Source: a bacterium
Lineage (GTDB): Bacteria; Zhuqueibacterota; Zhuqueibacteria; Residuimicrobiales; Krinioviventaceae
Assembly: GCA_029561455.1 (NCBI GenBank)
Contig: JAKQIY010000057.1
Coordinates: 124,001 to 188,000, forward strand
Reading direction: 5' to 3'
DNA: 64,000 nucleotides
The notes under the pieces were generated by a model. The model was not told the origin of the DNA. It made no database searches and saw only the letters and a list, made by a program, of their open reading frames with translations. The position numbers were made by a program, and so were the translations under genes. Positions 15,591-63,838 of this stretch are shown here, one piece after another. Each line of letters opens with the position of its first letter. Position 1 is the first letter of the stretch.

Positions 15591-15616
15591 ACATTACTCC
15601 ATGAATTATGTAGTAT

Positions 15617-20716: not shown

Positions 20717-21958
20717 TTAATCCCTCACCAGGCGAATCGAGAATCCATTTCGCCTGCTACAATCGTAGCGGACCACTTCTGATGAATGAGCGTATGGACT
20801 GCGATAAAGGGCGTAATCACCATAGAATAGAGTAGCCGACCAATAAAAGGCGAATTCGCCCATGTTATCGAAAAAACCTGTAATGCTTTCGTGACGTCCG
20901 CCAGGCAGCGCGGTAAAACCACTTTCATTGCTAGCTCCGGTGTTGGGACTGTTCCAGTGTTCAGCGCCGCTTTCTTTCATTTTACCGCCAGCCACAGCAT
21001 CTCCCCCTAAAAAATTAATCAGTATCTGCCATTCCGCATCCGTAGGGACATGCCAGCCGGATGGGGCAATATTACGGCTGTCGTTCACCGCGTACCAGTT
21101 GTACAGCGCGCCATAAGTATCTGCATAGCTGCTGTTATTGTTATAATAGCAGTACGCACCGGCAGTCAATGCCAACCATGCAGAATTTTCCGTTACATTG
21201 GGAATTGAGGTTCCATCCCGGTAACGTGTGGTTCTCAGGTCTTCCGCCATCCACCATTGGCTGCCTATTTTAACTGTTTTATAGGTATTACCGTCAATAT
21301 CTGTCATTGTCCCGGTTTTTAAAGTAATGGTCACCTGCCTGGTCGTGGTATCCCTGAGGCCTCCTGAATCCATTACTTCCAGTCTGACAGTTTTTACACC
21401 TGTTGAAAAGGCAAATTGATTAGTAGCTGATTTGCTATTCGAGTATTCCGTATCCCACGAGCCGTTATCCTCCCAGTCCCAGCGCACCAACAAAACGGAG
21501 GTTGGGTCCTCGAGGTCCGAACAGCCGGAGGCATCAAAGTTGAATACGGTCTGGGTCGTGCCGAAGGTTGGCTCAACAGTAAATGACGCAACCGGGGGCG
21601 TATTGCCGGTCGAATTCATTTCGTTAGCGGTAACCCGTACCCGGTAGCTGTTGCCGCTCACCCATGGATTATCCGTAAAAAAATCCCACACAATATGCTT
21701 ATTTATTCCGGGTACAATACCCTTGCCGACATCGCCGCCGAATCGTGTGCATGGTAATATCCAGGTAGCGCCGTCATCGTTTGACGCTGTTATGCCAACT
21801 TCAAGGATATCGCCATCCGCGTCTGTTACATCATAATATATATCTACCAGCAGGCTGCCGTCGGTGCGTTGTTCAAAACGGACATTGTTAACTACCGGCG
21901 CGGCGGCATATACTGTAACTGCTGCCAACAATAACAGGATTATTGTCTTTATTTTCAT
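20717..21958 (-). CDS. Secreted PKD-FISUMP surface protein (copy A)
   Basis: 413 aa starting at ATG 21958 (AGAGGT ribosome site; the longer frame to 22006 lacks one). Signal peptide about 1-19. Residues 20-135 form a beta-sandwich ('VVNNVRFEQRTDGSLLVDIY'), about 135-225 a PKD-like domain ('FDASGCSDLEDP'), and about 228-413 a FISUMP domain ('DIDGNTYKTVKIGSQWWMAE' ... 'GWHVPTDAEWQ' ... 'GFSIRLVRD'). FISUMP is a C-type-lectin / formylglycine-enzyme-like fold found in surface proteins of Fibrobacter and relatives. It lacks the sorting tail seen in neighbouring proteins. The N-terminal two-thirds is almost the same as copy B (22503-23744), while the last ~50 residues are very different. Probably ligand-binding or adhesive; ligand unknown. 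Confidence 0.8.
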   Translation of the reverse strand: MKIKTIILLLLAAVTVYAAAPVVNNVRFEQRTDGSLLVDIYYDVTDADGDILEVGITASNDDGATWILPCTRFGGDVGKGIVPGINKHIVWDFFTDNPWVSGNSYRVRVTANEMNSTGNTPPVASFTVEPTFGTTQTVFNFDASGCSDLEDPTSVLLVRWDWEDNGSWDTEYSNSKSATNQFAFSTGVKTVRLEVMDSGGLRDTTTRQVTITLKTGTMTDIDGNTYKTVKIGSQWWMAEDLRTTRYRDGTSIPNVTENSAWLALTAGAYCYYNNNSSYADTYGALYNWYAVNDSRNIAPSGWHVPTDAEWQILINFLGGDAVAGGKMKESGAEHWNSPNTGASNESGFTALPGGRHESITGFFDNMGEFAFYWSATLFYGDYALYRSPYAHSSEVVRYDCSRRNGFSIRLVRD

Positions 21959-22187
21959 ATCTACCTCTGTTTCATCAGCCAAAAGCTTGAGATTATTGAA
22001 TATCACAGATTATTTTTATAACAGCAATCAGGTTGTAAGCTCTGCCCCATCGTTTATAATATAATAATGGGGGGAAAATCCATCCTGCCATCTAACCTGG
22101 TTTATATTACGGTATAGGCAATCCATTTTTTATTCTGTACACAGGGTAATGTTACCCGGCGCGATCTGGTAATTGTTAGTTCCGATA

Positions 22188-22502: not shown

Positions 22503-23744
22503 CTAATCCCGAACGAGACGTACTGAAAATCCGGCGTGCTTACTGCCGTAGCCGTGGCTTACGTCATCGAGATTATAATACAGGAGTCGGACCCACGCGT
22601 AATTTGTATTGAACTCCGTAGCCGACCAATAATAAGCGGTGTAAATCATATCGTAGAAAGAGCCATTACTGTAGCTACGGTAGCCGCCCGGCCGCGCCGT
22701 AAAACCGCTTTCATTGGTAGCGCCGGTGTTGGGGCTGTTCCAATGTTCAGTACCGGTTTCTTTCATTTTGCCGCAGGCAACAGCATCTCCCCCTAAAAAA
22801 TTAATCAGGGTCTGCCATTCCGTATCGGTTGGCACATGCCAGCCAGCCGGGGCAATATTACGGCTATCGTTCACCGCATAACAGTTGTACAGCGCGCTAT
22901 AAGTATCTGCATAACTTCTGTTATTGTCATAATAGCAGTACGCACCGGTGGTTAAATTCACCCACTGGGTGTTATCTGTTACATTCGGTATGGGATCGCC
23001 GTTGCGGTAATGCGTCACTTTCAAATCCTGCGCCATCCACCACTGGTTGCCAATTTTAACCGTTTGATAGACATTACCGTCAATATCCGTCATTGTCCCG
23101 GTTTTTAAAGTAATAGTTACCTGTCGGGTCGTGGCATCCCTGAGGCCTCCTGAATCCATTACTTCCAGTCTGATAGTCTTTACACCCGTGGAAATGGGAA
23201 ACTGATTGGTAGCTGTTTTAATTGTCGTATAATCCGTATCCCATGCGCCATTATCTTCCCAGTCCCAGCGCACCTGCAAGGCGGAGGTTGGGTCCTCGAG
23301 GTCCGAACAGCCGGTAGCATCAAAGTTGAATACGGTCTGGGTCGTGCCGAAGGTTGGCTCTACTGTAAATGATGCGGTCGGAGGTGTATTACCGGTCGAA
23401 TTCATTTCGTTGGCGGTAACCCGTACCCGGTAGCTGTTGCCGCTCACCCATGGATTATCCGTAAAAAAATCCCACACAATATGCTTATTTATTCCGGGTA
23501 CAATACCCTTGCCGACATCGCCGCCGAATCGTGTGCATGGTAAGTTCCAGGAAGCGCCATCATCGTTCGACGCGGTTACGCCAACTTCAAGGATATCGCC
23601 ATCCGCGTCTGTTACATCATAATATATATCTACCAGTAGGCTGCCGTCGTCGCGCTGTGCAAAACGGACATTGTTAACTACCGGTGCGGCGGCAAATACC
23701 GTAACTGCTGCCAATAATAATAGTATGATTGTCTTTATTTTCAT
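22503..23744 (-). CDS. Secreted PKD-FISUMP surface protein (copy B)
   Basis: 413 aa from ATG 23744 (GAGGTG ribosome site), the same length as copy A. Same order: signal peptide (1-19), N-terminal beta domain, PKD-like domain, FISUMP domain. A long stretch of the first half is identical to copy A at DNA level (for example about 115 nt around 23430-23545 versus 21640-21755). The 3' ~150 nt differ even at silent sites. The stop is followed by a 544-nt gap with repeats. It begins 40 nt after the FN3/sorting-tail gene ends and is probably co-transcribed with it. Presumed surface lectin-like protein; no sorting tail of its own, so attachment might depend on its neighbour. Confidence 0.8.
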   Translation of the reverse strand: MKIKTIILLLLAAVTVFAAAPVVNNVRFAQRDDGSLLVDIYYDVTDADGDILEVGVTASNDDGASWNLPCTRFGGDVGKGIVPGINKHIVWDFFTDNPWVSGNSYRVRVTANEMNSTGNTPPTASFTVEPTFGTTQTVFNFDATGCSDLEDPTSALQVRWDWEDNGAWDTDYTTIKTATNQFPISTGVKTIRLEVMDSGGLRDATTRQVTITLKTGTMTDIDGNVYQTVKIGNQWWMAQDLKVTHYRNGDPIPNVTDNTQWVNLTTGAYCYYDNNRSYADTYSALYNCYAVNDSRNIAPAGWHVPTDTEWQTLINFLGGDAVACGKMKETGTEHWNSPNTGATNESGFTARPGGYRSYSNGSFYDMIYTAYYWSATEFNTNYAWVRLLYYNLDDVSHGYGSKHAGFSVRLVRD

Positions 23745-23784
23745 ATCCACCTCGGTATGCGCAAATACACACTCTTGTTACCGT

Positions 23785-25193: not shown

Positions 25194-27398
25194 TTAATCT
25201 CTAATGCAGCGAATTGAAAAACCGGTGCGTTTACTGTTGCTTGACAGGTGCAAAACAGACTGATCAAACATTAGTATGTAACTTCTGGCATCTTCATTAT
25301 TGTACTCTGTGGCCGCCCAATAACAAGCGTTTTGGCCCAATTCGTCAAAATTACTGGTAAAACCATTACGATAACCACCCGGCCGTCCTGTAAAGCCGCT
25401 CTCGTTAGTAGCGCCGGTGTTGGGGCTGTTCCAGTGTTCAGTACCGGTTTCTTTCAACTTACCACCGGCAACACTCTCTCCTCCTAAAAAATCAATCAAT
25501 ATATTCCACTCAATCAGGGTCGGTATATGCCAACCCGTCGGGGCAAGATTCCGGGTTTCGTTTAAAGCATACCAATTATACAAGGCGCCATAATCATCGG
25601 CATTATTACTATCATTCTGGTAATAGCAGTAAGCTCCGGCAACTTGTTCCTTCCATTGGTTATTATCGGTAATATTGGGAATAGCCTCACCATTCCGGTA
25701 ATGCGCCACTCTGAGGTTTTCCGCCATCCACCATTGCTTGCCGATTTTAATAGTTTTATAGGTATTGCCGTCAATGTCGGTAACAGTTCCGGAATCCGGC
25801 ATTGCGGTAGTAAAACAATAGGTTTCGGACCAGGGACTCGTTCCCGCAGAATTGGCGGCGCTCACCCGCCAGTAATAGGTTGCGCCTTGAGTCAAGCCGG
25901 TTAACTGATAAGAAGTATCCTCAAAATCATTCAGGTCAATAAAAATGGTCGTAAAATTAATATTATCAGCGACCTGAAGGTGGTAAGAAAAAGCGCCGGT
26001 TGAGTTCCCCCATCTTAAAAGCGGACTGGTAGATATTTCTGTTTCATTATTATAAGGCGAATATAGATAAGGTGGATCAGGAATAATATCCTTTATTAAA
26101 CGCACGGCATACCCACACTTTTCATTACTATAATAGCGGTTGATATCGGCGTACATATAACTTGTAAATCTGTTCCAGGCTCCTAAACCGGTGTTTTGCG
26201 AACCGGTCCAAAAATAAGCCATAGAACCCAGACTGGTGAAGGTCCCATCATGAGCATAACGAATTCCACCAGGTCGAACAGTCAGACCGGATTCATTACT
26301 GGCGCCTTCATTAGGACTAGTCCAACGTTCTGTACCAGCTTCCTTCATTTTACCGCCGGCAATCTCCATCCCGCCAAGATAATTAACCAGGATATCCCAT
26401 TCCTCATCAGCGGGAACATGCCAGCCGGTTGGGCCAAAACCACGGCTGTCGTGGATTGTGAACCAGTTGTAGAGTACCCCATAATCAGCAGCATAAGCAG
26501 GATTATTGTCATAATAGCACCAGGCGCCGCTCATCTGGTCCATCCATTGGGCATTATCGGTTATATTGGGAATAGGCTCGCCATTATTGTAATAAAGTAC
26601 CCGTAAATTCTCCGCCATCCACCACTGATCGCCAATCAGCACAGTTTGATATATATTACCGTCAATATCGGCAACCGTACTTTTACGAAATACCATTATA
26701 TCATATTCCAATTGATCGGTAATTTCTACATCCTGCCGCTTCCAGGTAACAATGTCGGGCGCGCTGACACGCAACAGATAAATATTTGATGCAGTCTTGT
26801 TCATCCTGCCTGGATTACTCAAATTTTTATTTTCAACTGATATTGCAACGCCGGCAGATTGTCCGGCATGCCCATCCAGTAATAGCATTTTGCGGTTAAT
26901 TCTTTGCTCATTTGTGACCAGGGAATAGATATAAATACCCGCAGCGACGCCCCGGTCATTATCATCAGTCCCATCCCACATCACCAGGTTAAACAATTGG
27001 GTTTGAAAACCGTCATATAACGTTTTGATCTTTTGCCCCAAAACATTATATATTTCAACTCGTATATCGGCAGGCTGAGGTAATTCATAACAGATCCGGG
27101 TAGCCGGATTAAAAGGATTTGGAAAATTCTGATATAAATATAAAGCGCCGGGATTCTTTATTGAGTTATTATCAATTCCGTTATCATATATAAATATGTC
27201 ATAATTTCCCTGGGCATCGGTCATACTGCTGATTACCCTGCCTGAATCAGCCTGATCTATCAATTCAACCAGGGCGTTCACTACAGGTAAATACTCACAA
27301 TCATACACTCTGCCATACAGGATTATTTGCGAAAATGACTTTTGACCGGGAAATAAAAAACAAATAGTAATAATCAATAACCAAATGCGAGATGACAT
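25194..27398 (-). CDS. Secreted double-FISUMP protein with an internal sorting-like (FlgD-type) module
   Basis: 734 aa with signal peptide (about 1-23) and a GGAGGG ribosome site. Order: a short carboxypeptidase-regulatory-like domain (about 25-72), a FlgD/Por-type module at about 88-175 ('YQNFPNPFNPATRI' ... 'RKMLLLDGH'), a linker (176-238), FISUMP-1 (about 239-437), an FN3-like domain (about 440-530) and FISUMP-2 (about 537-734, ending 'GFSIRCIRD'). In other proteins of this window that module is always the last thing in the chain. Here it is near the N-terminus with ~560 residues after it, so it cannot act as an ordinary terminal sorting signal. The protein is probably a surface ligand-binder. 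A 7TM-AraC regulator lies upstream on the same strand. Confidence 0.8.
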   Translation of the reverse strand: MSSRIWLLIITICFLFPGQKSFSQIILYGRVYDCEYLPVVNALVELIDQADSGRVISSMTDAQGNYDIFIYDNGIDNNSIKNPGALYLYQNFPNPFNPATRICYELPQPADIRVEIYNVLGQKIKTLYDGFQTQLFNLVMWDGTDDNDRGVAAGIYIYSLVTNEQRINRKMLLLDGHAGQSAGVAISVENKNLSNPGRMNKTASNIYLLRVSAPDIVTWKRQDVEITDQLEYDIMVFRKSTVADIDGNIYQTVLIGDQWWMAENLRVLYYNNGEPIPNITDNAQWMDQMSGAWCYYDNNPAYAADYGVLYNWFTIHDSRGFGPTGWHVPADEEWDILVNYLGGMEIAGGKMKEAGTERWTSPNEGASNESGLTVRPGGIRYAHDGTFTSLGSMAYFWTGSQNTGLGAWNRFTSYMYADINRYYSNEKCGYAVRLIKDIIPDPPYLYSPYNNETEISTSPLLRWGNSTGAFSYHLQVADNINFTTIFIDLNDFEDTSYQLTGLTQGATYYWRVSAANSAGTSPWSETYCFTTAMPDSGTVTDIDGNTYKTIKIGKQWWMAENLRVAHYRNGEAIPNITDNNQWKEQVAGAYCYYQNDSNNADDYGALYNWYALNETRNLAPTGWHIPTLIEWNILIDFLGGESVAGGKLKETGTEHWNSPNTGATNESGFTGRPGGYRNGFTSNFDELGQNACYWAATEYNNEDARSYILMFDQSVLHLSSNSKRTGFSIRCIRD

Positions 27399-31756: not shown

Positions 31757-32096
31757 AGAATTCTCCTTTTGAATACTGTAATACTGAATTACAGAATAAT
31801 AATACAGTATTTATAAATTAAAATCGTCCTTTTACATGTTAAAGAACTCTTTTTTTAAAATAATTTTCACTCATTTCAGATACAGGAAACCGGAGAGCAA
31901 AGCTATTCCCACTAGCGGGTGATAATGATTTAAAACCATACATTGGTTAACCAAAAACAGATGATGATACATTTTATATTGGATTAAATATTTATTTATT
32001 TATTTTATAAAAAAAAATGTAAACCGGCCGGATCGTATATCGTCAAATGTTCAGGTTATATCATACCAGTATTTGTATTTACATGGAGGAAATAAC
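31757..32096. other. Divergent intergenic region
   Basis: 340 nt, strongly AT-rich, between the divergent discoidin gene (-) and PD40 gene (+). No ORF or clear repeat; it must contain both promoters. Confidence 0.4.
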
Positions 32097-33122
32097 ATGA
32101 AAATTGACATTATCATAATTCTGTTAGCTGCTGCTTTGCAGGTAACACCTCCGGCTGGCACACAACCCGCTCACTGGAATAATTTCCAATACCTGGGCCA
32201 AACACCACCCGGCGATACGCCACAGGTTTTTGCCCCCGGTATTATTTCAACGGAAAATCTGGAGCTTTTCAGTCCTGCCATTACAGCGGATGGAACTGAA
32301 ATATACTGGTCCAGAATTGATTTACCTCCTGAAGAGAACTGGAGTAAAATCATGTATGTAAAATATGAAAACGGGATATGGTCGGAACCCGAAGTTGCCT
32401 CGTTTTCCGGTTTTTATCCGGATTACTCGCCGCTATTCTCCCGTGATGGCAATAAATTGTATTTTGCATCGGAGCGGGAATTTATAGTGTGGCAATCCCA
32501 TAGAAATATATCGGAACGGAAATTTATTGTAAGCCAACTCCATAGAAATATAAATAAATCGAAATGGATAAAGTCTGTTAATTACGCCGTCCATGTAACG
32601 TGGCGATGCCAGGATGATTGGTCTGTACCGGCATGTCTGACGCCCCCGCAAAGTTTTCATTCAAGTCCGGTTATAAACGAATGGGTTGATAATGCTAATA
32701 TCTGCTACCTGTCCCTGATTGGAGAGAATGAATGGGATGGTAGAATTTATGAAACACTTTACCGGGAATACCATGGATTGGGTGATTATATTTTTACGCC
32801 TTTCAAGAACTCCCCATCACACAATTACACTCCCTGGATTGCCGGGGATGGCAGTTTTATACTATTCTCATCCACCAGGAATCCCTATAGAGTAGATGAT
32901 GGTGATCTGTATATCTGTTTCCGGCAAAAGGGAAACAAATGGTCCGACGCCATCTTTTTGGGAGATGCCGTAAATACCTCAGCCTGCGAAAGATCTCCCT
33001 CGCTATCTCCGGACGGTAAATACCTGTTCTTTACCCGCACGACCCGGAATGATGACCAAGATATTTTCTGGGTGAATGCGAAAATTATCACTGAACTCAA
33101 AAACCAATATGCTCCGGAGTGA
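32097..33122 (+). CDS. Secreted PD40-type beta-propeller protein with internal 14-aa tandem repeat
   Basis: 341 aa from ATG 32097 (GGAGG eight bases upstream; upstream ATG 32073 rejected). Signal peptide about 1-21. Several WD40-like PD40 blades are visible ('PAITADGTEIYWSRI', 'SPLFSRDGNKLYFASE', 'SPSLSPDGKYLFFTR'), as in TolB-type periplasmic propellers. Residues about 125-152 hold two copies of a 14-residue unit (SEREFIVWQSHRNI and SERKFIVSQLHRNI) that the paralogue at 42643-43668 lacks. Function unknown; such proteins often bind partners or glycans in the periplasm. It stands just before the glycosidase cluster and its paralogue stands just after it. Confidence 0.78.
   Translation: MKIDIIIILLAAALQVTPPAGTQPAHWNNFQYLGQTPPGDTPQVFAPGIISTENLELFSPAITADGTEIYWSRIDLPPEENWSKIMYVKYENGIWSEPEVASFSGFYPDYSPLFSRDGNKLYFASEREFIVWQSHRNISERKFIVSQLHRNINKSKWIKSVNYAVHVTWRCQDDWSVPACLTPPQSFHSSPVINEWVDNANICYLSLIGENEWDGRIYETLYREYHGLGDYIFTPFKNSPSHNYTPWIAGDGSFILFSSTRNPYRVDDGDLYICFRQKGNKWSDAIFLGDAVNTSACERSPSLSPDGKYLFFTRTTRNDDQDIFWVNAKIITELKNQYAPE
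32470..32553 (+). repeat. 42-bp imperfect tandem repeat inside the PD40 gene
   Basis: Two adjacent 42-nt units starting at 32470 and 32512 differ at about 9 positions. The reading frame is kept (14 codons each), so the duplication lengthens one propeller loop. Unit start: CGGAGCGGGAATTT / CGGAACGGAAATTT. Confidence 0.75.
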
Positions 33123-33487: not shown

Positions 33488-35173
33488 ATGATGAAATTTC
33501 GTTCCCTGTTGATTCTGGTATTTACGGCTCTGATCGTCAGCAGCGCTATTTCTGCCGATACGGATATTAAATTAAACTCACTGGGCTTTTTACCACAAGC
33601 GTCCAAAAAGGCCACAATAAGCGACCTGTGCACGACTTTTGTTGTGAAAAAAGCCTCCGATAATAAACAAGTATTTTCCGGCCTGGTAACGGGTCCCTTG
33701 CATCAGGAAGATATAAACCAGGATGTATGGATTGCTGATTTTTCGAGTGTAACCAAAAAAGGCAAGTATTATATTGAAGTTCCCGGCGTAGGCCGCTCCT
33801 ATGATTTTGAGATCGGGGAAAAGGTTTATGATTTTGCCTATTATACCGCAATGCGGGCAATGTACCTGTGGCGTTGCGGTACGGCTGTATCAGGCGATCA
33901 CAATGGGGTGCATTTCGAACACAAGATCTGTCATACCAATGACGGCTGGGAAGATTACATGGGCAACAAAGACGTGCAGCGTGACGGCGTTGGCGGCTGG
34001 CACGACGCCGGCGATCATGGCAAGTATGTCGTCAATGCCGGTATTACGGTTGCTTCAATGTTTTACGCCTGGGATCACTATCAAAAAGGAATTAAAAAAA
34101 TATCTCTGGATATTCCCGACACAGCTCCGGGTTACCCCGATTTTCTTAAAGAGATGAAATGGGAAACGGACTGGCTGCTAAAAATGCAATACCCGGACGG
34201 TTCCGGTAAGGTTTCACATAAACTGACACGGTTAAATTTTGAAGGCTTTGTCCTGCCGGAAGAAGATACGGAAAAACGTTATTTTACCGAGTGGAGTTCC
34301 TCTGCGACTGCGGATTTCGTTGCCATGATGGCTATGGCTGCGCGCTATTTTGCTCCTTATGATGCCGCTTATGCCAAAACTTGCCTCGATGCAGCGAAAA
34401 AAAGTTATAATTTCCTGAAAGAAAATCCCGAACAAAAAATGTTTATGCAGCGCGAATTCCGCACTGGCGGCTATGGCAGCGGCGACGGCGATGACCGGAT
34501 GTGGGCGGCTGCCGAAATGTGGGAAACCACCGGTGAAAAACAATACCTGGATGACTTTGAAAAACGCGCCGCTGAATACAAACCCTTGGTTACCCGTTGG
34601 GAACCAAGCCTTTTGGCGGAAGGAAATATTGATCTGGACTGGGATTGGGGCAATGTTCGCAACCTGGGACAATTCACCTACATTCTTTCCAAAAAACCAG
34701 GCAAGAATCCGGAACTGGTTAAAACCATTAAAACCGATGTTATCGCCGCAGCGAATAAAATTGTTGAAACCGCCAACAAGGATGTTTATGCCAGACCCCT
34801 GGGCGGCAAGTATTACTGGGGGTGCAACGGTACGGTAGCCCGGCAGGTCATCAATCTGATGGTTGCCAACAAACTGTCACCCAATAAGGATTATGTAAAC
34901 ACATCTCTCGACGCCATCGGTCACTTGTTTGGCCGTAATTACTATGGCCGTTCATACATCACCGGCGTGGGTCATAACCCGGCCATGAATCCGCACGACC
35001 GTCGTTCCGGCGGGGACAATATTGTCGATCCCTGGCCCGGCTATGTGGTCGGCGGCGGCCATACGGCAACCGGCTGGAAAGATGAACAGGCCGATTATGC
35101 TACCAATGAAATAGCCATTAACTGGCAGGGAGCACTTGTATATGCCCTGGCTGCCTTTGCAAGCGGCAAGTGA
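33488..35173 (+). CDS. Secreted GH9 endoglucanase / beta-glucanase
   Basis: 561 aa with signal peptide (about 1-22, ISA-D) and GAAAGGA ribosome site. An N-terminal CelD-type Ig-like domain (about 25-108) precedes the (alpha/alpha)6 GH9 domain (about 112-560). Catalytic signatures are present: 'GGWHDAGDHGKY' with Asp173 and Asp176 (base and nucleophile-positioning pair), 'NPHDRRSG' with His503 (substrate binding), and 'YATNEIAINW' with Glu541 as general acid. It should cut beta-1,4-glucan or related beta-glucans by inversion. No carbohydrate-binding module or sorting tail is present, so it is probably periplasmic or freely secreted. First gene of the cluster; the next gene follows after 50 nt. 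Confidence 0.93.
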   Translation: MMKFRSLLILVFTALIVSSAISADTDIKLNSLGFLPQASKKATISDLCTTFVVKKASDNKQVFSGLVTGPLHQEDINQDVWIADFSSVTKKGKYYIEVPGVGRSYDFEIGEKVYDFAYYTAMRAMYLWRCGTAVSGDHNGVHFEHKICHTNDGWEDYMGNKDVQRDGVGGWHDAGDHGKYVVNAGITVASMFYAWDHYQKGIKKISLDIPDTAPGYPDFLKEMKWETDWLLKMQYPDGSGKVSHKLTRLNFEGFVLPEEDTEKRYFTEWSSSATADFVAMMAMAARYFAPYDAAYAKTCLDAAKKSYNFLKENPEQKMFMQREFRTGGYGSGDGDDRMWAAAEMWETTGEKQYLDDFEKRAAEYKPLVTRWEPSLLAEGNIDLDWDWGNVRNLGQFTYILSKKPGKNPELVKTIKTDVIAAANKIVETANKDVYARPLGGKYYWGCNGTVARQVINLMVANKLSPNKDYVNTSLDAIGHLFGRNYYGRSYITGVGHNPAMNPHDRRSGGDNIVDPWPGYVVGGGHTATGWKDEQADYATNEIAINWQGALVYALAAFASGK

Positions 35174-35223
35174 TATTTTGAAATAAAATTACAGTGTAAA
35201 TTAAACACATAGAAAGGATTAAT

Positions 35224-37101
35224 ATGATACGCCAACATCGACAAGCAATACTGTGTATGGCAATAATTGCTATGCTGTTGTCTGTTACCGCCTTTGCCGT
35301 AGAAGGCTACAAAAATTTTGATGTAGCGATTTATGTTCGCGCCCAGGAGACTAAAGAAATGGGCGATATTAACTGGCTGCAACCCAAGTGGGATATTATT
35401 TCCTCCCAGTTACATGTCGATAAAATCTATCTGGAAACCCATCGCGACCAATTGCTGGTAGATAAAGAAACGATGCTGAAAGCCAAACAATTTTTCGAAA
35501 GCAAGGGCGTCAAAACCGCCGGCGGTATAACCCTGACGATGAATGAGAGAAACCGTTTTCAAACATTTTGCTATACCAATCCGGAACACCGTAAAAAAGT
35601 GCAGGAAATTGTCGAATTAACTGCCAGCATATTTGACGAACTCATACTGGATGACTTTTTTTTCACCAATTGCAAATGCGACCTGTGCGTAAAAGCCAAG
35701 GGGAAAAAAAGCTGGACGGATTATCGCCTGGAACTGATGCAAAAGGCAGCCGAAGATCTCATTGTAAAACCGGCCAAAAAGGTCAATCCTCAAATCAAAG
35801 TGGTTATCAAATACCCGAACTGGTATGAACATTTTCAGGGTTTGGGTTTTAACCTGGAAACCCAGCCGCATACTTTTGACGGCGTTTACACCGGCACAGA
35901 GACCCGTGATCCTTCGTCCGACCAACATTTACAGGCCTATGAAAGCTACCTGATCATCCGTTATTTTGATAACCTGCGTCCGGGTCACAATTATGGCGGC
36001 TGGGTCGACACCGGCGGTTCGCGGTACCTCGATCGTTATGCCGAACAATTGTGGTTGACTCTGCTGGCCAAAGCCCCGGAAATAACCTTATTCGAATTCC
36101 GCGCCGCCACTATGGAAGTTCGTGATACGCAACGCGGCGAATGGCAGGGCCAGGGCACCACGTTTGATTTTGATGCTATGAAAAAGCCCTTCACATTACC
36201 GGACGGTACAACCTCGACAAAAACTACGATCGCCGGCGCCGCAGCTTATTCTTTCGAGCAGGTTGATAAAGTATTGGGAGAACTGGGTAAACCGGTTGGC
36301 CTGAAAAGCTATAAACCCTATCACTCGGTAGGCGAAGATTTTCTGCAGAATTATTTCGGCATGATCGGCATTCCTATGGACATCGTCCCTGAATTTCCGG
36401 TTGCAGAAAAAATGATCCTGCTCACCGAATCGGCCGCTTTCGATCCTGATATTGTCAAAAAAATCAAAGGACAACTGGCCGCCGGTAAAAATGTTACCAT
36501 CACCTCCGGCCTGTTAAAAGCATTACAGGGAAAAGGTATTGAAGATATTGCCGAAATCCGTTACACCGACCGCAAAGCCCTGGTTAAAGACTTTCGCGCC
36601 GGTTGGGGACAATTTGTACAATCCCCGGTGGAAATATTGATCCCGCAGATCATGTATCTGACCAACGATTCATGGGAAGAGGTATCCGGGTTCGACGGCA
36701 CCAATGGCTGGCCGATGCTGCATTCCGCTGCCTATTCCAATGGTAAATTGTTTGTGCTGACCGTTCCGGAAAGCTTTACCGATCTGTACAACCTGCCGGT
36801 TGAAGTATTGTCCCGCTTTAGCGAAACCTTGTTGCAGAATATGTATGTACGCATCAATGCTCCGGGTTATGTTTCGCTGTTTGTTTACGATAATAATACC
36901 TTTATTATCGAATCATTCCGGGATACGGCTGTAGATGTCAATATTATTCTCGATTCCGCTATGAAATCCCTGCGCACCCTTGACGACAATCAACCCCTGA
37001 CCGGCGAAGATGTCAGAGGTTGGTTTGGAGCGCCGGTAACGAAAAAGAGTTACAAAACCACGATCAAACCGCATTCTTTCCGGGTATTCCGGTGTGAATA
37101 G
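35224..37101 (+). CDS. Secreted protein of unknown function, probable TIM-barrel glycosidase-like fold
   Basis: 625 aa with signal peptide (about 1-25, AFA-V) and AAAGGA ribosome site. The N-terminal ~330 residues alternate beta strands and helices in a way that suggests a TIM barrel. There is an acidic strand end followed by a CxCxxC motif ('ELILDDFFFTNCKCDLCVKA'), which may bind metal. Residues about 370-460 resemble the glutamine-amidotransferase-like domain that follows the barrel in GH42-type enzymes ('KMILLTESAAFDPDIVKKIK'). A C-terminal beta domain completes the protein. I cannot place it in a numbered GH family. Its position between GH9 and GH3 genes, 50 nt after GH9, argues for a role in the same glycan pathway. 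Confidence 0.65.
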   Translation: MIRQHRQAILCMAIIAMLLSVTAFAVEGYKNFDVAIYVRAQETKEMGDINWLQPKWDIISSQLHVDKIYLETHRDQLLVDKETMLKAKQFFESKGVKTAGGITLTMNERNRFQTFCYTNPEHRKKVQEIVELTASIFDELILDDFFFTNCKCDLCVKAKGKKSWTDYRLELMQKAAEDLIVKPAKKVNPQIKVVIKYPNWYEHFQGLGFNLETQPHTFDGVYTGTETRDPSSDQHLQAYESYLIIRYFDNLRPGHNYGGWVDTGGSRYLDRYAEQLWLTLLAKAPEITLFEFRAATMEVRDTQRGEWQGQGTTFDFDAMKKPFTLPDGTTSTKTTIAGAAAYSFEQVDKVLGELGKPVGLKSYKPYHSVGEDFLQNYFGMIGIPMDIVPEFPVAEKMILLTESAAFDPDIVKKIKGQLAAGKNVTITSGLLKALQGKGIEDIAEIRYTDRKALVKDFRAGWGQFVQSPVEILIPQIMYLTNDSWEEVSGFDGTNGWPMLHSAAYSNGKLFVLTVPESFTDLYNLPVEVLSRFSETLLQNMYVRINAPGYVSLFVYDNNTFIIESFRDTAVDVNIILDSAMKSLRTLDDNQPLTGEDVRGWFGAPVTKKSYKTTIKPHSFRVFRCE

Positions 37102-37109
37102 CTGTAAAG

Positions 37110-37143
37110 AACCCTCATAGCTCTTGGGCTATGAGGGTTTTAA
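37110..37143 (+). terminator. Rho-independent terminator
   Basis: Perfect 12-bp stem (AACCCTCATAGC / GCTATGAGGGTT) with a 6-nt loop, then TTTTAATT. It separates the unknown protein gene from the GH3 gene, so the cluster is at least two transcripts unless read through. Confidence 0.85.
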
Positions 37144-37221: not shown

Positions 37222-39429
37222 ATGCTGCGTTTATTAAAAAAGCAGGGTAAAGCAAGCTGTATGATTTTATTTATTGCCATTTTCCTTGTTTCTCTGCACA
37301 CAGTATATTCCGAAACCGGCGCGGGAACGGATGCTGATGCAAAAATATCAGCGATCATCAGCCAGATGACGCTGGAAGAAAAAATCGTCATGTTGCATGG
37401 CAGCAGCCTGTTCAATTCCGCCGGCATAGAACGGTTGGGCATCGAAGAAATGAAATTCACCGACGGCCCATTTGGCATACGAGAAGAATTGGGTCGGAAC
37501 TCCTGGGCGCCCGTCGGCGCAACGGATGATTCCGCCACCTTTCTCCCGACCGGCCCGGCGCTGGCGGCAACCTGGAACAATACCCTGGCCCTGGAATATG
37601 GCAAATGTATCGGCGCGGAAGCGCGCGCCCGCGGCAAAGACGTGTTGCTTGGCCCGGCTCTGAATATCTTTCGCACCCCGTTATGCGGCCGTAATTTCGA
37701 TTATTTTACCGAAGATCCCTTTCTCAATGCCGGAATAACTGTCGGCTATGTCAAGGGCGTGCAAAGCCAGGATGTAGCCGCGTGCCTGAAACATTATGCT
37801 CTGAACAACCAGGAAACCGAGCGCGGCCGCATCGATGTGCAGGTAGATGAACGCGCCCTGCGGGAAATTTATTTGTATGGTTTTGAAGCGGGAATCAAAC
37901 AAGGCGGAGCGCTGACTGTTATGGGTTCGTATAACAAATTCCGCGGCGCCTGGTTATGCGAAAATGATTATTTGATGAACAAAATGCTGAAAGGTGAATG
38001 GGGATTTAAGGGCCTGGTTGTTTCGGACTGGGGCGCGACTCACAGTTCCGTCAATTCAGCGTTGTATGGCCTGGATGTGGAAATGGGCGGACGCGGCAGC
38101 GGCCCCGATGCTTATTTTATGGGGTCAGCCCTGCTCAAAGCCGTGCAGGAAGGCCAAGTTGATGAAAAGATCATCGATGAAAAGGTACGGCGCATTCTCC
38201 ATGTCATGTTCAGCATTAAAAAACAGCAGCCGGATCGGGCTACGGGTGCAATCAACACCCCGGAACACCGGCAGACAGTTTATAATGTGGCTGCAGAAGC
38301 CATTGTATTGCTAAAAAACAGCGCCGGCGTCCTTCCTTTGAATGTAGACAAGGTGCACACCCTGGCGGTCTTTGGCGATAACGCTATGGAAAAACACGCC
38401 CAGGGCGGTTTTGGCGCCGGTGTTAAAGCCAAATATGAAATAACTCCTTTAGCCGGCCTGCAGAACCGGTTGCAAGACAAGGTAAAGATCAATTATGCCC
38501 AGGGTTATAAAAAACAATTCCAACAAACACCCGGCGGGCGGCGCTTCTTTGGCGCTCCGGCTCCCGATAATACCCCGGATACTACGCTCATTCAGGAAGC
38601 CGTAAAAATTGCTAAAAGCAGCGATGCGGTGGTTATATTTGCCGGCTCCAACCGCAATTTTGAATCCGAAGCGCGCGACCGGACCGACTTGCAACTGCCT
38701 TTCGGCCAGGTAGAACTCATCCAGGCGGTGGCGGCCGTCAATCCCAATACGGTGGTAGTAATGATTACTGGTGCGGCCTTTGATTTGAGTGTGGTGGAAA
38801 AATCGGTCTCCGCCCTGCTCTGGTCTTCCTTTAACGGTTCCGAAGCCGGTAATGCCTATGCGGATGTCCTGTTCGGGAAGGTCAATCCTTCCGGTAAATT
38901 ACCCTACACTATTCCGGTAAAACTGGATGATATTGCCGCTCATGCGCTGGGCACCTTTCCCGGTGAAAACGGCAAGGCTGAATATAAAGAAAGTATTCTG
39001 GTTGGCTATCGCTGGTTCGATACCAAAGGCATCGAGCCGCTCTATTGCTTTGGACATGGTTTATCTTACAGCACCTTTGAGATCAATTCGGTAAAAACCG
39101 ATAAATCCAAATATACCCAGGACGGGACGATTGATGTTAAAGTGACGGTTAAAAATACCGGCCAAACGGCCGGCACGGAAACCATACAACTTTATGTACA
39201 TGATACAGAGGCCTCGGTAATGCGTCCGCAAAAAGAATTAAAAGGCTATGCCAAGCTCTTTTTGCAACCGGGTAAAAAACAGGATGTACATATTAAAATT
39301 CCGGTTAAGGATCTGGCATTCTATTCCGACACCGCCATGCAATGGGTTGTAGAACCGGGACAATTTGAACTGCTGGCCGGCTTTTCCTCACGGGATATAC
39401 ACAAAACTACCCTTATTACCGTAAAATAA
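37222..39429 (+). CDS. Secreted GH3 beta-glucosidase-type enzyme
   Basis: 735 aa with signal peptide (about 1-30) and GAGGTA ribosome site. Three GH3 domains are present: a TIM-like domain (about 35-330) with 'KHYALNNQE' and the nucleophile Asp269 in 'GLVVSDWGA', an alpha/beta sandwich (about 350-590) with 'NRNFESEARDRTDLQLP' carrying the expected acid/base Glu, and a C-terminal FN3-like domain (about 640-730). Such enzymes release terminal beta-D-glucose (or xylose, or mannose in some subgroups) by a retaining mechanism. With GH9 and GH5 nearby it would finish oligosaccharides produced by those endo-enzymes in the periplasm. Confidence 0.94.
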   Translation: MLRLLKKQGKASCMILFIAIFLVSLHTVYSETGAGTDADAKISAIISQMTLEEKIVMLHGSSLFNSAGIERLGIEEMKFTDGPFGIREELGRNSWAPVGATDDSATFLPTGPALAATWNNTLALEYGKCIGAEARARGKDVLLGPALNIFRTPLCGRNFDYFTEDPFLNAGITVGYVKGVQSQDVAACLKHYALNNQETERGRIDVQVDERALREIYLYGFEAGIKQGGALTVMGSYNKFRGAWLCENDYLMNKMLKGEWGFKGLVVSDWGATHSSVNSALYGLDVEMGGRGSGPDAYFMGSALLKAVQEGQVDEKIIDEKVRRILHVMFSIKKQQPDRATGAINTPEHRQTVYNVAAEAIVLLKNSAGVLPLNVDKVHTLAVFGDNAMEKHAQGGFGAGVKAKYEITPLAGLQNRLQDKVKINYAQGYKKQFQQTPGGRRFFGAPAPDNTPDTTLIQEAVKIAKSSDAVVIFAGSNRNFESEARDRTDLQLPFGQVELIQAVAAVNPNTVVVMITGAAFDLSVVEKSVSALLWSSFNGSEAGNAYADVLFGKVNPSGKLPYTIPVKLDDIAAHALGTFPGENGKAEYKESILVGYRWFDTKGIEPLYCFGHGLSYSTFEINSVKTDKSKYTQDGTIDVKVTVKNTGQTAGTETIQLYVHDTEASVMRPQKELKGYAKLFLQPGKKQDVHIKIPVKDLAFYSDTAMQWVVEPGQFELLAGFSSRDIHKTTLITVK

Positions 39430-39631
39430 CAACCGGTAATTGAATTTTTAATAAAACAATATTATATTAAGGTGATGACGGATTTTTATCGACACAAAGA
39501 TAGAAATCCGTCTTAACCGGATTTTCAATATGAACCAGCCGTATTCGGCTCACACCTGGACAAAAGCGGCGCAACTGGTGATCCGGCAGACTCCCTTTAC
39601 CCTCGCATTGCTAAGAGAAAGGATAGTTATA

Positions 39632-40639
39632 ATGCTCAAAAAATTTCTGGTTATGATTACTCTGTTAATCGCATTTTTTTCTCTGGCAACGGCACAGGAT
39701 CATCCCGGCTTTCACGTTAAAGGACGGCACCTGTATGACAAATGCGGCGAAAAAGTGATCCTGCGCGGGGTGAATAAAATGATCATTTGGAAAGATATTG
39801 ACGGCATTCCCGCTTATGCTGAAATTGCTCAAACCGGCGCCAATGTGGTGCGAATTGTGTGGAACGATTCCGGTCCCGCCCTTGATTTGGATAAAACGAT
39901 AACCAACTGCATCGCTCAGCAAATGATCCCGATGGTTGAATCGCACGATGCTACCGGCAAGTGGGAATTATTGGATAAAGCGGTGGATTACTGGATCCGG
40001 CCGGATATTGTGCCGATTCTGCAAAAACATGAGCAATACTTGCTGCTCAACATTGCCAACGAATGTGGCGACGCCGGGGTAACGACAGAGATGTTCCGGA
40101 CAAAATACTGTGAGGTGATCCAGAAAATGCGACTAGCCGGTATTCATGTTCCCCTGATTATTGACGCGACAGACTGGGGCAAGAACATCAATATTCTGCA
40201 ATCCGAAGGCCCGGCCTTGCTGGAAGCAGATCCGGATCACAACCTGATCTTTTCTATTCACTTATGGTGGCCGGTTATGTGGGGGTATTCGGAAAAGAGA
40301 ATCATTGAGGAACTGGCAGAATCTGTGGCTATGGAACTTCCCCTGATAGTCGGCGAATTTGGCAACCGGTGGGATGAAACCCCCGGCGGTGTTATTCCCT
40401 GGCGAGCGATTTTAAAACAATGCCAACTCTATGAAATCGGCTGGCTGGCCTGGTCATGGGGGCCGGGCAATAAACCGCAAACTTTTCTCGATATGACCCG
40501 CGATGGCTCCTTTGCCACTCTGCATGACTGGGGTCTGGCAGTTGCAATAACAGATTCCTTTAGTATTAAAAATACCTCAGTCCGCCCGGCTTTTATTCTT
40601 AACCTGAATTGCGAGCAGGCGCCGGGAAAAAATAAATAA
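39632..40639 (+). CDS. Secreted GH5 enzyme, beta-mannanase-like (subfamily 8-like)
   Basis: 335 aa from ATG 39632, which has GAAAGGA upstream and opens directly into a signal peptide (about 1-21, ATA-Q); the longer frame from 39530 is rejected. GH5 signatures: 'ILRGVNKM', 'NIANECGD' with acid/base Glu144, 'HLWWP' and 'IVGEFGNRW' with nucleophile Glu242. The wording around 'GFHVKGRHLYDKCGE', 'TGANVVRIV' and 'ESHDATGKW' is like bacterial endo-beta-1,4-mannanases of GH5_8 (from family knowledge; not searched). The next gene is a GH27 alpha-galactosidase, the natural partner for galactomannan. Length is typical of a single-domain mannanase without a binding module. Confidence 0.88.
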   Translation: MLKKFLVMITLLIAFFSLATAQDHPGFHVKGRHLYDKCGEKVILRGVNKMIIWKDIDGIPAYAEIAQTGANVVRIVWNDSGPALDLDKTITNCIAQQMIPMVESHDATGKWELLDKAVDYWIRPDIVPILQKHEQYLLLNIANECGDAGVTTEMFRTKYCEVIQKMRLAGIHVPLIIDATDWGKNINILQSEGPALLEADPDHNLIFSIHLWWPVMWGYSEKRIIEELAESVAMELPLIVGEFGNRWDETPGGVIPWRAILKQCQLYEIGWLAWSWGPGNKPQTFLDMTRDGSFATLHDWGLAVAITDSFSIKNTSVRPAFILNLNCEQAPGKNK

Positions 40640-40797
40640 CAACCCAGTTTGCGATTGACAATCACGGCAAAAAATCGTAAAATACTGGTGAAAATTATAT
40701 TACTCCTGCAAGCAGAGATAACAAAAAAATAATGTGCCAGGGACATATTACTCCCTGGCTTTTACATTTACCGGCAATTAAACGAAGGAAAAAAGTT

Positions 40798-42003
40798 ATG
40801 AAAAAAATCGTTGTTCTGGTATTAATGCTGTTATCTGTACAGGTTTATGCGCAAAAATTTAAAGGTCTGGCATTGACTCCGCCGATGGGCTGGAACAGTT
40901 GGAACAAATTCGCCTGCGACGTTAATGAAAAAGTGATTAGGGATTGCGCGGATGCCATGGTAAAGAGCGGCTTAAAAGACGCCGGGTATAAATATATTGT
41001 AATCGATGATTGCTGGCATGGCGAGCGCGACAGTCTCGGTTTTATTCAGGCCGACCCGCAACGTTTCCCGTCCGGCATGAAAGCGCTGGCCGATTATATC
41101 CACTCGCTGGGGTTAAAATTCGGCATCTATTCCGATGCCGGCTGGAAAACCTGCGGCGGTCGTCCCGGCAGCCGGGGCAGAGAATACCAGGACGCTTATA
41201 TGTACGCCAAATGGGGTATCGATTACCTGAAATATGACTGGTGCAATACCGAAGGTCTTAACGCCGAAGGCGCGTATATGACCATGCGCGACGCCCTGTA
41301 TGCTGCCGGTCGGCCGATCGTATTCAGCCTTTGCGAATGGGGCAACAACGATCCCTGGAAATGGGGCAAGAACGTTGGGCATTTGTGGCGCACCACCGGC
41401 GATATAGCCGTATTGTTTGACGGTGAAGAAAAACACCCCGGTTGGTCGTCATGGGGGGTGTTGCAGATCATCGATATGCGCCAGGATATTCGCCAATACG
41501 CCGGGCCGGATCACTGGAATGATCCGGATATGATGGAAGTCGGCAACGGCATGAGCGTTAATGAAGATCGCGCCCATTTTTCAATGTGGTGTATGCAGGC
41601 TGCGCCGCTCATGGCCGGGAATGATCTTGCCAATATGAGCAAAGAAACCCTGGAAATTCTTACCAACAAGGAAGCGATTGCTGTAGACCAGGATACGCTG
41701 GGTATACAGGGATTTTCTTATGCTATGAACGATAAAGTGGAGATCTGGTTCAAGCCTTTGCAAAATGACGAATGGGCGGTTTGCTTTTTGAACCGTAATG
41801 GTGAAGCCAAACCGGTGGAATTTACCTGGAGCGAACACAAAGTGATCGATAGTTTCGCCAACCGCGAAGCGGATTTCACTAAAACTACTTATAAAATTCG
41901 CGATCTGTGGGCAAAGAAGGACATTGGCAAAACCGATAAAAAGTTAACCACTACCCTGCCCGGTCATGATGTTCTCATGTTCCGTTTAACACCGGTGAAA
42001 TAA
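40798..42003 (+). CDS. Secreted GH27 alpha-galactosidase
   Basis: 401 aa from ATG 40798 (GAAGGA ribosome site; longer frame from 40732 rejected). Signal peptide about 1-19 (VYA-Q). Typical clan-D barrel: 'LTPPMGWNSWNKF' at 26-38, 'IDDCWHGERD', and nucleophile Asp147 in 'YLKYDWCN'. The acid/base is one of the aspartates in 'WNDPDMMEVGNG' (Asp242/Asp244). A C-terminal beta-sandwich follows (about 310-401). It should release alpha-1,6-galactose side groups from galactomannan or raffinose-type sugars by retention. Next to the mannanase-like GH5 this makes a coherent galactomannan pair. Confidence 0.95.
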   Translation: MKKIVVLVLMLLSVQVYAQKFKGLALTPPMGWNSWNKFACDVNEKVIRDCADAMVKSGLKDAGYKYIVIDDCWHGERDSLGFIQADPQRFPSGMKALADYIHSLGLKFGIYSDAGWKTCGGRPGSRGREYQDAYMYAKWGIDYLKYDWCNTEGLNAEGAYMTMRDALYAAGRPIVFSLCEWGNNDPWKWGKNVGHLWRTTGDIAVLFDGEEKHPGWSSWGVLQIIDMRQDIRQYAGPDHWNDPDMMEVGNGMSVNEDRAHFSMWCMQAAPLMAGNDLANMSKETLEILTNKEAIAVDQDTLGIQGFSYAMNDKVEIWFKPLQNDEWAVCFLNRNGEAKPVEFTWSEHKVIDSFANREADFTKTTYKIRDLWAKKDIGKTDKKLTTTLPGHDVLMFRLTPVK

Positions 42004-42642: not shown

Positions 42643-43668
42643 ATGAAGAGACTCTTTTTCGCAGGTATAATTCCCCTGTTATCCCTGTTACTGGCATGTA
42701 ACGGAGCAACCGAAAAGCCCCGGGCGAACACCGGGTTGACCGGGCCTTACCTGAGCCAGCAATTGCCGGGTGCAGACCCGGTTATTTTTGCTCCCGGCAT
42801 TGTTGCAACCGGCCTGGTAACACGGGATATGGCAATAACGCCGGATGGCAAGGAAATTTATTTCAGCCGTACAGCCGGAAGTCACACCTACGCCACAATT
42901 ATGGTAACAAAACTTGACAACGGCGTCTGGACGCAGCCGGAAGTTGCCCCCTTTGCCGCTAATCCGGCCTGGCTGACCATGGAACCCTGTATATCTTCGG
43001 ATGGTAACAGTTTTTACTTTTTCTCCAATCGCCCCGATTCCGCAGCCGGAGAGACCAAACCGACAGATGAAGATATATGGGTCATGCGCCGCAGCGGCGA
43101 GAACTGGAGCGCTCCGGTTAATATGGGCCCGCCGGTCAACAGCGAATTCCCGGAATATTTTCCTTCGGTAACCACAAGCGGCGCGATCTATTTTACCCGC
43201 GAAAGTAAAGATCACCGCGAAAATTATATTTACCGCTGCCGTTTTGAAAATGGCGTGTATAAAGAAGCGGAAAAACTGCCGCCGCAAATTAATTCCACAT
43301 CGACACAGTTTAATGCTTTTATCGCGCCTGATGAAAGTTATTTAATCGTCAGCGTGTGGGGGCGCAGCGACAGCTATGGCGGCGCCGATTATTATATATG
43401 CTTTCACCGGTCGGACGATACCTGGAGCGAGCCCGTCAATTTGGGCGACAGGATCAATAGCAAAAGCAGCCAGGAATATTCACCGTATATTTCCCCGGAC
43501 GGGCGTTACTTTTTCTTCATGTCGGTCAGCCCGGTTGCACAACTAGCCGCCCCGCTTACCCGCGACCGGCTTTATCAATTACATAATTCTCCGCAAAACG
43601 GCAACCCGGTGATGTTTTGGGTGGACGCCGGGTTTATCGAACAACTCAGGACCGCAAACAATGAATAA
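42643..43668 (+). CDS. PD40-type beta-propeller lipoprotein
   Basis: 341 aa with a lipoprotein signal (lipobox LLAC at about residues 16-19). PD40 blades are visible ('MAITPDGKEIYFSRT', 'PCISSDGNSFYFFSN', 'SPYISPDGRYFFFMS'). It is a paralogue of the protein at 32097-33122: both share the opening 'VFAPGI' followed by the first blade. It lacks that protein's 14-residue tandem repeat. Anchored probably in the outer or inner membrane facing the periplasm. Its 3' end overlaps the next gene by 8 nt, indicating translational coupling. Function unknown. Confidence 0.8.
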   Translation: MKRLFFAGIIPLLSLLLACNGATEKPRANTGLTGPYLSQQLPGADPVIFAPGIVATGLVTRDMAITPDGKEIYFSRTAGSHTYATIMVTKLDNGVWTQPEVAPFAANPAWLTMEPCISSDGNSFYFFSNRPDSAAGETKPTDEDIWVMRRSGENWSAPVNMGPPVNSEFPEYFPSVTTSGAIYFTRESKDHRENYIYRCRFENGVYKEAEKLPPQINSTSTQFNAFIAPDESYLIVSVWGRSDSYGGADYYICFHRSDDTWSEPVNLGDRINSKSSQEYSPYISPDGRYFFFMSVSPVAQLAAPLTRDRLYQLHNSPQNGNPVMFWVDAGFIEQLRTANNE

Positions 43669-63779: not shown

Positions 63780-63838
63780 ACTCACTCCTCCTCAGAGATC
63801 ATTCATAAATGAATGAATTATACGAACATTAAGGTAAA

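Follow-up and report, generated by a model that had tools for sequence, protein, structure and literature searches.

The stretch of bacterial DNA analyzed here (64,000 nucleotides, referred to below as the window) carries a glycosidase gene cluster on its forward strand. The second gene of this cluster encodes P0001, the protein under study, and the immediate locus comprises the following features:

33488..35173, forward strand: GH9, CelD-like endoglucanase, 50 nt upstream of P0001 (Pfam; nearest solved structure)
35211..35219, forward strand: AGAAAGGAT, a putative Shine-Dalgarno-like element ahead of the P0001 ATG, read from the sequence
35224..37101, forward strand: P0001 coding sequence, 625 aa, ATG start, stop codon within the coordinates
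35224..35298, forward strand: probable signal peptide of P0001, approximately residues 1-25 (sequence reading)
37108..37141, forward strand: terminator-like hairpin of 15 pairs, then a T-containing tail, directly 3' of the P0001 stop
37222..39429, forward strand: GH3, beta-glucosidase-like (Pfam; nearest solved structure)
39530..40639, forward strand: GH5, beta-mannanase-like (Pfam; nearest solved structure)
40732..42003, forward strand: GH27, alpha-galactosidase-like (Pfam)

The P0001 reading frame is intact, with zero internal stops, and a spacer of 50 nt separates its start from the GH9 stop codon; the sequence-only reading, which had described a 625-residue protein 50 nt after a GH9 gene, is thus confirmed in both the frame and the spacing, with GH9 identified by Pfam. 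The same reading had called the protein secreted. To judge by eye, the N-terminus does read as a signal peptide, and P0001 is apparently secreted; in the full structure model, this segment forms a helix (residues 2-24) with pLDDT values below 50 at residues 22-25. The hairpin past the stop codon has the longest stem among the terminator-like sites found by a scan of both strands of the window (16 such sites, versus a shuffle mean of 11.8). Because of this hairpin and the short spacer, GH9 and P0001 look like a two-gene (bicistronic) unit.

Several other parts of the window deserve mention. The glycosidase cluster is flanked by two forward-strand genes for propeller-type proteins that are alike at the start, one assigned to PD40 by Pfam (32073-33122) and the other judged to be a propeller by reading (42643-43668). 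A second small glycosidase unit on the reverse strand (13509-17659) pairs a gene for a GH42 beta-galactosidase with one for GH97, the two being less than 30 nt apart. Fib_succ_major proteins are encoded on the reverse strand at 20720-22006 and 25197-27398, and a third reverse-strand frame (22506-23750) has an N-terminus nearly identical to that of the 20720-22006 protein, perhaps by a recent duplication. The two adjoining, similar membrane proteins encoded on the reverse strand at 59861-61465 and 62175-63785 are presumably SSS-type transporters.

Sequence searches with P0001 yielded nothing better than E = 0.21 in Pfam, zero matches in NCBIfam, and best E values against PDB chains of 0.3 (phmmer), 0.52 (79-row profile), and 0.10 (26-row profile). 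In species-level genomes, 299 pattern matches were found, 284 of which encode a relative of P0001; a tblastn search of plasmids found no relative. The best 80 of the 284 relatives were kept, and 78 of these (two were dropped), with identities to P0001 of 55-65%, were aligned with it to give 79 rows, which had no glycosidase family among the Pfam matches listed (25 of 26 families). The conservation of these relatives across phyla means that P0001 is not a chance reading frame. One relative (L008, 8001-9866) has an internal stop and shows as two adjacent reading frames. Rows of the tree carry nine phylum labels, those of candidate division KSB1 being unlabeled, and the nearest relative of P0001 (L001) is found among the KSB1 rows.

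The window genome has a single copy of the gene. Among 60 related genomes, its own included, 19 have a match, and 8 encode a member of subfamily 1, to which P0001 belongs (E < 1e-250). In one genome (G033), an intermediate copy (L144) is present as a fragment at the edge of a contig; another (G006) has a second, divergent copy (L134). Subfamily 2 is set apart by a fully supported branch in a quick tree, and its members share with P0001 30-36% identity in the barrel segments and 24-27% over the full alignment. Among the titles and opening lines of abstracts listed by literature searches, with most subscription papers outside their scope, no published description of the family was found. The earlier statement that P0001 could not be placed in a numbered family therefore stands with respect to Pfam, NCBIfam, and PDB sequences, which hold no known-family match. 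Very probably, P0001 represents a real, widespread, and unnamed family with a glycosidase architecture.

This architecture consists of three domains:

35305..36213, forward strand: (beta/alpha)8 barrel, approximately residues 28-330 (model strands, fold matches)
36292..36831, forward strand: GATase-like domain of the GH42 trimerization type, approximately residues 357-536 (model, profile alignments)
36847..37098, forward strand: C-terminal beta domain, approximately residues 542-625 (model)

In Foldseek searches with the full model, GH42 beta-galactosidases came out on top (3tts at rank 1, E = 1.3e-20), and the GH151 alpha-L-fucosidase ALfuk2 (6tvk) was at rank 7 (E = 1.5e-18). The VIA comparisons gave Z scores of 21.1 for GH42 5e9a (517 residues, 4.5 Å), 20.3 for the GH164 beta-mannosidase Bs164 (6t75; 523 residues, 4.0 Å), which has the same three-domain fold, and 18.8 for GH151 6tvk (516 residues, 4.4 Å); Cwp19 scored 22.0 over the barrel only (276 residues, 3.4 Å). 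Both the barrel-like N-terminal half and the GH42-like GATase domain proposed in the sequence-only reading are thus present, the first as a (beta/alpha)8 barrel in the model and the second in full-length fold matches and profile alignments with GH42, and no strong match to a glycosidase family was found in Pfam, NCBIfam, or PDB. A separate model of the barrel (pLDDT 89.3) proved undiscriminating: its VIA scores were 21.4 for Cwp19, 20.3 for GH42, 19.6 for PgaB (GH153), 19.2 for GH164, and 18.6 for GH151, and the best 50 Foldseek rows contained Cwp19, beta-amylase, GH1, and others, with neither GH42 nor GH151 among them. For this reason, the barrel alone does not point to the catalytic kin of P0001.

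Full-length profile comparisons also favored GH42. The 26-row profile matched eight GH42 proteins over 505 columns (probability 92.7, E = 4.3e-7), and the 79-row profile aligned with GH42 from the second domain onward only (probability 63, E = 7e-5), with GHL6 in the second domain only (probability 23.8), and with GH151 at a probability of 3.0. The barrel-only profile gave probabilities of 73.4 for GHL6 (PF14871), 59.3 for GH42, 45.1 for GHL10 (PF02638; 0.6 for a 5-row subset), and 3.7 for four GH151 rows. The controls (GH27, GH5, GH97, an aminotransferase, and a transporter), which are weak ones, being single sequences, gave 0.1-2.8, and the value for the aminotransferase, 2.8, is little below that for GH151. 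Global barrel alignments with GH151 and GH42 aligned the ends alone.

GH42 (PF02449/PF08532/PF08533) shares with P0001 the barrel, the GATase-like domain, and the C-terminal beta domain, is its best full-length profile match, and has the same type of Cys...CxCxxC cluster. However, PF02449 was not listed for P0001 at E ≤ 10 (HMMER filters drop most matches above ∼0.1), and Asp143, Asp144, and Asp262 of P0001, found in 79 of 79 rows, occupy positions on strands 4 and 7 where GH42 has Glu. The GHL6 and GHL10 barrels show weak profile similarity, and the GHL10 strand-4 motif HFDDYFYP (4 of 13 rows) resembles LDDFFFT of P0001, but PF14871 and PF02638 were likewise unlisted at E ≤ 10. In the GHL6 rows of the GH151 type (L109-L111), an Asp is followed by CxCxxC. 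The likeness to PgaB and Cwp19 is confined to the barrel, the only part aligned of chains of about 360 residues. In PgaB, which cleaves deacetylated PNAG, D474 is a key Asp; it is located on strand 4, and P0001 has Asp143 and a similar fold.

The candidate active site comprises the following residues:

35434..35436, forward strand: Glu71, inside strand 2 (67-74), unchanged across both subfamilies (model, alignment)
35644..35655, forward strand: ILDD (141-144), with Asp143 at the strand 4 end as the proposed nucleophile (alignment, model)
35899..35901, forward strand: Glu226, strand 6 end, proposed acid/base (model, alignment)
36007..36009, forward strand: Asp262, strand 7 end, alternative catalytic residue (both models, alignment)

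Fourteen residues (Y37, E71, R74, D143, D144, K196, P198, W200, E226, R228, R246, W260, D262, and E286) are unchanged in all 79 rows of subfamily 1 and also in the 8 of 8 full-length subfamily 2 rows counted. Across the two subfamilies, which are approximately 25% identical over their full length, charged and aromatic residues located at or close to strand ends are retained, a pattern expected of an active site. The Glu/Glu pair of clan GH-A is not among the invariant carboxylates. Strands 4, 6, and 7 of the full model end with D143, E226, and D262, respectively; in the barrel-only model, strand 4 ends at residue 142 and strand 6 at residue 224, short of D143 by one residue and of E226 by two, and strand 7 again ends with D262.

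An Asp nucleophile is common among retaining alpha-glycosidases (GH29, GH31, and GH27). The GH151 enzyme, which resembles P0001 in its fold, has as its nucleophile Asp154, which terminates strand 4, and as its acid/base Glu235, which terminates strand 6 (PMC10154630). By our own count in the 6tvk sequence, D154 lies seven residues ahead of the first Cys of CxCxxC, and Asp143 of P0001 lies seven residues ahead of Cys150. The profile alignments with GHL6 and GHL10 match D143 to the Asp on strand 4 in the first row of each (P0002 and L147, respectively). Based on the strand-end positions, the GH151 layout, and this pairing of D143, Asp143 is favored as the nucleophile and Glu226 as the acid/base, an assignment to which we give about even odds. 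Several observations go against a GH151-like layout. The equivalence of the residues comes from strand positions in the full model, without a significant alignment; 6tvk gave no sequence match at E ≤ 10 (phmmer and two profiles), and the four-row GH151 profile match was weak. The GH151 alignment that places E226 opposite the acid/base is also nonsignificant (probability 1.8, E = 0.027) and has D143 five residues off, and the GHL10 alignment places E226 opposite a Tyr of L147. The barrel-only ranking puts Cwp19, GH42, GH153, and GH164 as high as GH151 or higher. By eye, no counterpart of GH151 His503, which comes from the neighboring subunit, was recognized in P0001, where this region is poorly aligned.

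The main alternative catalytic residue is D262. With Asp143/Asp144 as the acid/base on strand 4 and Asp262 as the nucleophile on strand 7, P0001 would have the geometry of clan GH-A and could be a beta-glycosidase, an exo-enzyme acting on cello-, manno-, or xyloglucan oligosaccharides. The position of D262, which is invariant and terminates strand 7 in both models, is consistent with this option, as are the GH9, GH3, and GH5 beta-glycosidases of the window cluster and the closest full-length folds, which include GH42 and GH164, both with catalytic residues on strands 4 and 7 (PMC7105311 and PMC8573354). However, those residues are Glu in both families (Glu160 and Glu297 in GH164; PMC7105311), whereas P0001 has Asp at both strand ends, invariably at 143, 144, and 262, and its strand 7 (residues 256-262) contains no Glu. 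A beta-glycosidase of this kind is an unlikely alternative to the Asp143/Glu226 pair. P0001 combines a proposed, GH151-like residue layout with a GH42-like architecture and sequence profile, and the searches place it in neither family.

The Cys cluster is the other prominent feature of the barrel:

35569..35571, forward strand: Cys116, first of the cluster, 79/79 in subfamily 1 (alignment)
35671..35688, forward strand: CKCDLC (150-155), Cys cluster (sequence, alignment)

The sequence-only reading had pointed to ILDD beside a CxCxxC motif, and indeed residues 141-144 are followed by the cluster at 150-155. It had also suggested that the protein may belong to a new glycoside hydrolase family with a metal or disulfide site; such a site is plausible, given its four-Cys Zn analogue in GH42. 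In a homology model of the GH42 enzyme Gal42, the Zn site is formed by Cys113, Cys153, Cys155, and Cys158; the same study reports that the four-Cys cluster is not shared throughout GH42 and that the Zn of Bca-beta-gal is noncatalytic (PMC8573354). In the P0001 family, Cys150 is present in 79 of 79 rows, and Cys152 and Cys155 are present in 70. The nine rows without the latter two (L055, L057, L065, L066, L069, L072, L074, L076, and L079) always lose both and keep Cys116 and Cys150; in the quick tree, eight of them form one Bacteroidota clade with L057 elsewhere, which reads as two paired losses. All four Cys residues are absent from 8 of 8 full-length rows of subfamily 2 and are retained in the divergent copy of G006. 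Because of the paired losses and of the absence of all four residues from subfamily 2, the cluster is unlikely to be catalytic. For a protein that is secreted, disulfides 116-150 and 152-155 would fit the pairwise absence at least as well as Zn, and a metal-only reading has been lowered on account of the nine rows.

A distinct question is whether P0001 already belongs to a numbered CAZy family outside Pfam, NCBIfam, and PDB, which would affect its novelty and not its mechanism. CAZy does hold families without Pfam models. Nevertheless, no significant match to solved chains was seen, profiles included, which makes prior membership improbable. The candidate GH173 was set aside, since PMC8810776 presents it as a member of clan GH-A and compares it to GH30 and GH5. 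The best reading is that P0001 is a new family-level glycosidase relative to Pfam and NCBIfam, with a predicted activity.

Gene neighborhoods were examined in flanks of at most 8 kb; many contigs were shorter, and many flanks were ended by contig edges. With these bounds, a member of the GH9, GH2, GH31, GH3, GH97, or GH27 clusters was found in the flanks of 32 of the 80 loci (GH9 in 11, GH2 in 11, GH31 in 10, GH3 in 5, GH97 in 4, and GH27 in 3), and 48 loci had no member of these six clusters. Immediate same-strand neighbors within 350 nt numbered 85 (50 upstream and 35 downstream) from 77 loci; the raw Pfam counts, among the best 25 of 97 families, were 8 for GH2, 5 for GH9, 4 for SASA acetylesterase, and 3 each for GH31, GH97, GH3, and AGE-type epimerase. 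Two Bacteroidales loci (L024 and L038) have the order GH31-GH2-target-SASA-aldose epimerase (the last label assigned by reading); the order stops at SASA in L023, is limited to GH31-GH2-target in L025, and lacks GH2 in L036. Three other loci (L019, L021, and L029) have the order GH9-AGE epimerase-target. The GH31 of L024 has as its nearest match the alpha-xylosidase BoGH31A (1322 bits), a xyloglucan enzyme, and the GH2 of L037 is most similar to LacZ-type beta-galactosidases. Ten neighbors of subfamily 2 and of the divergent G006 copy, picked by reading, were scanned: L135 and L138 adjoin GH78 and a fused 3-keto-disaccharide hydrolase/GDSL protein, L143 adjoins GH92, L142 adjoins GH38, and the G006 copy sits between GH3 and GH92, with no glycosidase neighbor recognized by eye at the other subfamily 2 loci (L136, L137, L139-L141, etc.).

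Judging from its neighborhood, P0001 is more likely to be linked to beta-glucan, xyloglucan, and glucomannan than to galactan. Genes for BoGH31A-type GH31 (E ≤ 1e-100) are found in 7 of the 8 subfamily 1 genomes versus 10 of the 52 others (one-sided Fisher P = 3e-4, uncorrected for kinship). Against a xyloglucan context, the window cluster itself, with its GH5 mannanase and GH27, reads as glucomannan more than xyloglucan, and the 48 loci without the six clusters weigh the same way. Xyloglucan-type side chains are a rather doubtful substrate of P0001.

A special case of a retaining exo-alpha-glycosidase would be an alpha-L-fucosidase or alpha-L-galactosidase that trims the side chains of xyloglucan, a functional analogue of GH151 or GH95 acting alongside GH31, GH2, and an acetylesterase. 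It would agree with the GH151-like residue layout, the GH31(BoGH31A type)-GH2-target-SASA order, and the enrichment of BoGH31A-type genes. However, 7 of the 8 subfamily 1 genomes, versus 15 of the 52 others, already have fucosidase-type genes of GH95 (P = 0.003, uncorrected for kinship), which lowers the idea of a missing fucosidase; genes of the fucose-isomerase family are common in any case (8 of 8 versus 33 of 52, P = 0.04, also uncorrected for kinship), and the GH9-AGE epimerase-target loci and the window mannanase cluster are unlike what is expected for fucosylated xyloglucan, so that this specificity is quite improbable. A nonhydrolytic or carbohydrate-binding protein that retains the barrel fold, in which several of the carboxylates could be structural, is very improbable, given that both subfamilies retain the charged and aromatic residues found at or close to the ends of strands.

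We therefore favor, at a probability of roughly 0.45, a secreted retaining exo-alpha-glycosidase of the GH42/GH164/GH151 build that acts on hemicellulose oligosaccharides, with the mechanism and substrate being those that we infer. In such an enzyme, made up of the catalytic barrel, the GATase-like domain, which probably mediates trimerization, and the C-terminal beta domain, Asp143, closing strand 4, would serve as the nucleophile and Glu226, closing strand 6, as the acid/base of a retaining mechanism, presumably on an alpha anomer, and the Cys cluster would be a noncatalytic structural Zn or disulfide site. P0001 would remove an alpha-linked sugar from oligosaccharides of a beta-1,4-glucan-type hemicellulose, such as xyloglucan, which in the window could be released by the GH9 encoded together with it. 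The fold and family assignment of P0001 are well supported, its mechanism is moderately so, and its substrate is deduced from context.

A broader reading, offered tentatively, is that these proteins form a new glycoside hydrolase family, widespread among environmental Bacteroidota, Acidobacteriota, Planctomycetota, Chloroflexota, and KSB1, in which the three-domain scaffold of GH42 bears a retaining alpha-glycosidase site of the GH151 type, with Asp on strand 4 and Glu on strand 6. The family would include a sister subfamily that lacks the Cys cluster and is encoded near GH78, GH92, and GH38 genes, and it would remove a side-chain sugar in the breakdown of xyloglucan or beta-glucan. If this is true, the family would be an exo-glycosidase that recurs next to xyloglucan and beta-glucan enzymes, and its high conservation across phyla would suggest one specific substrate. 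To our knowledge, GH151 is the only known case of the Asp4/Glu6 layout on this scaffold. If the broader reading is true, the GH42 three-domain scaffold would host that layout beyond GH151, and 284 stretches in species-level genomes would encode an unannotated exo-glycosidase of hemicellulose breakdown.
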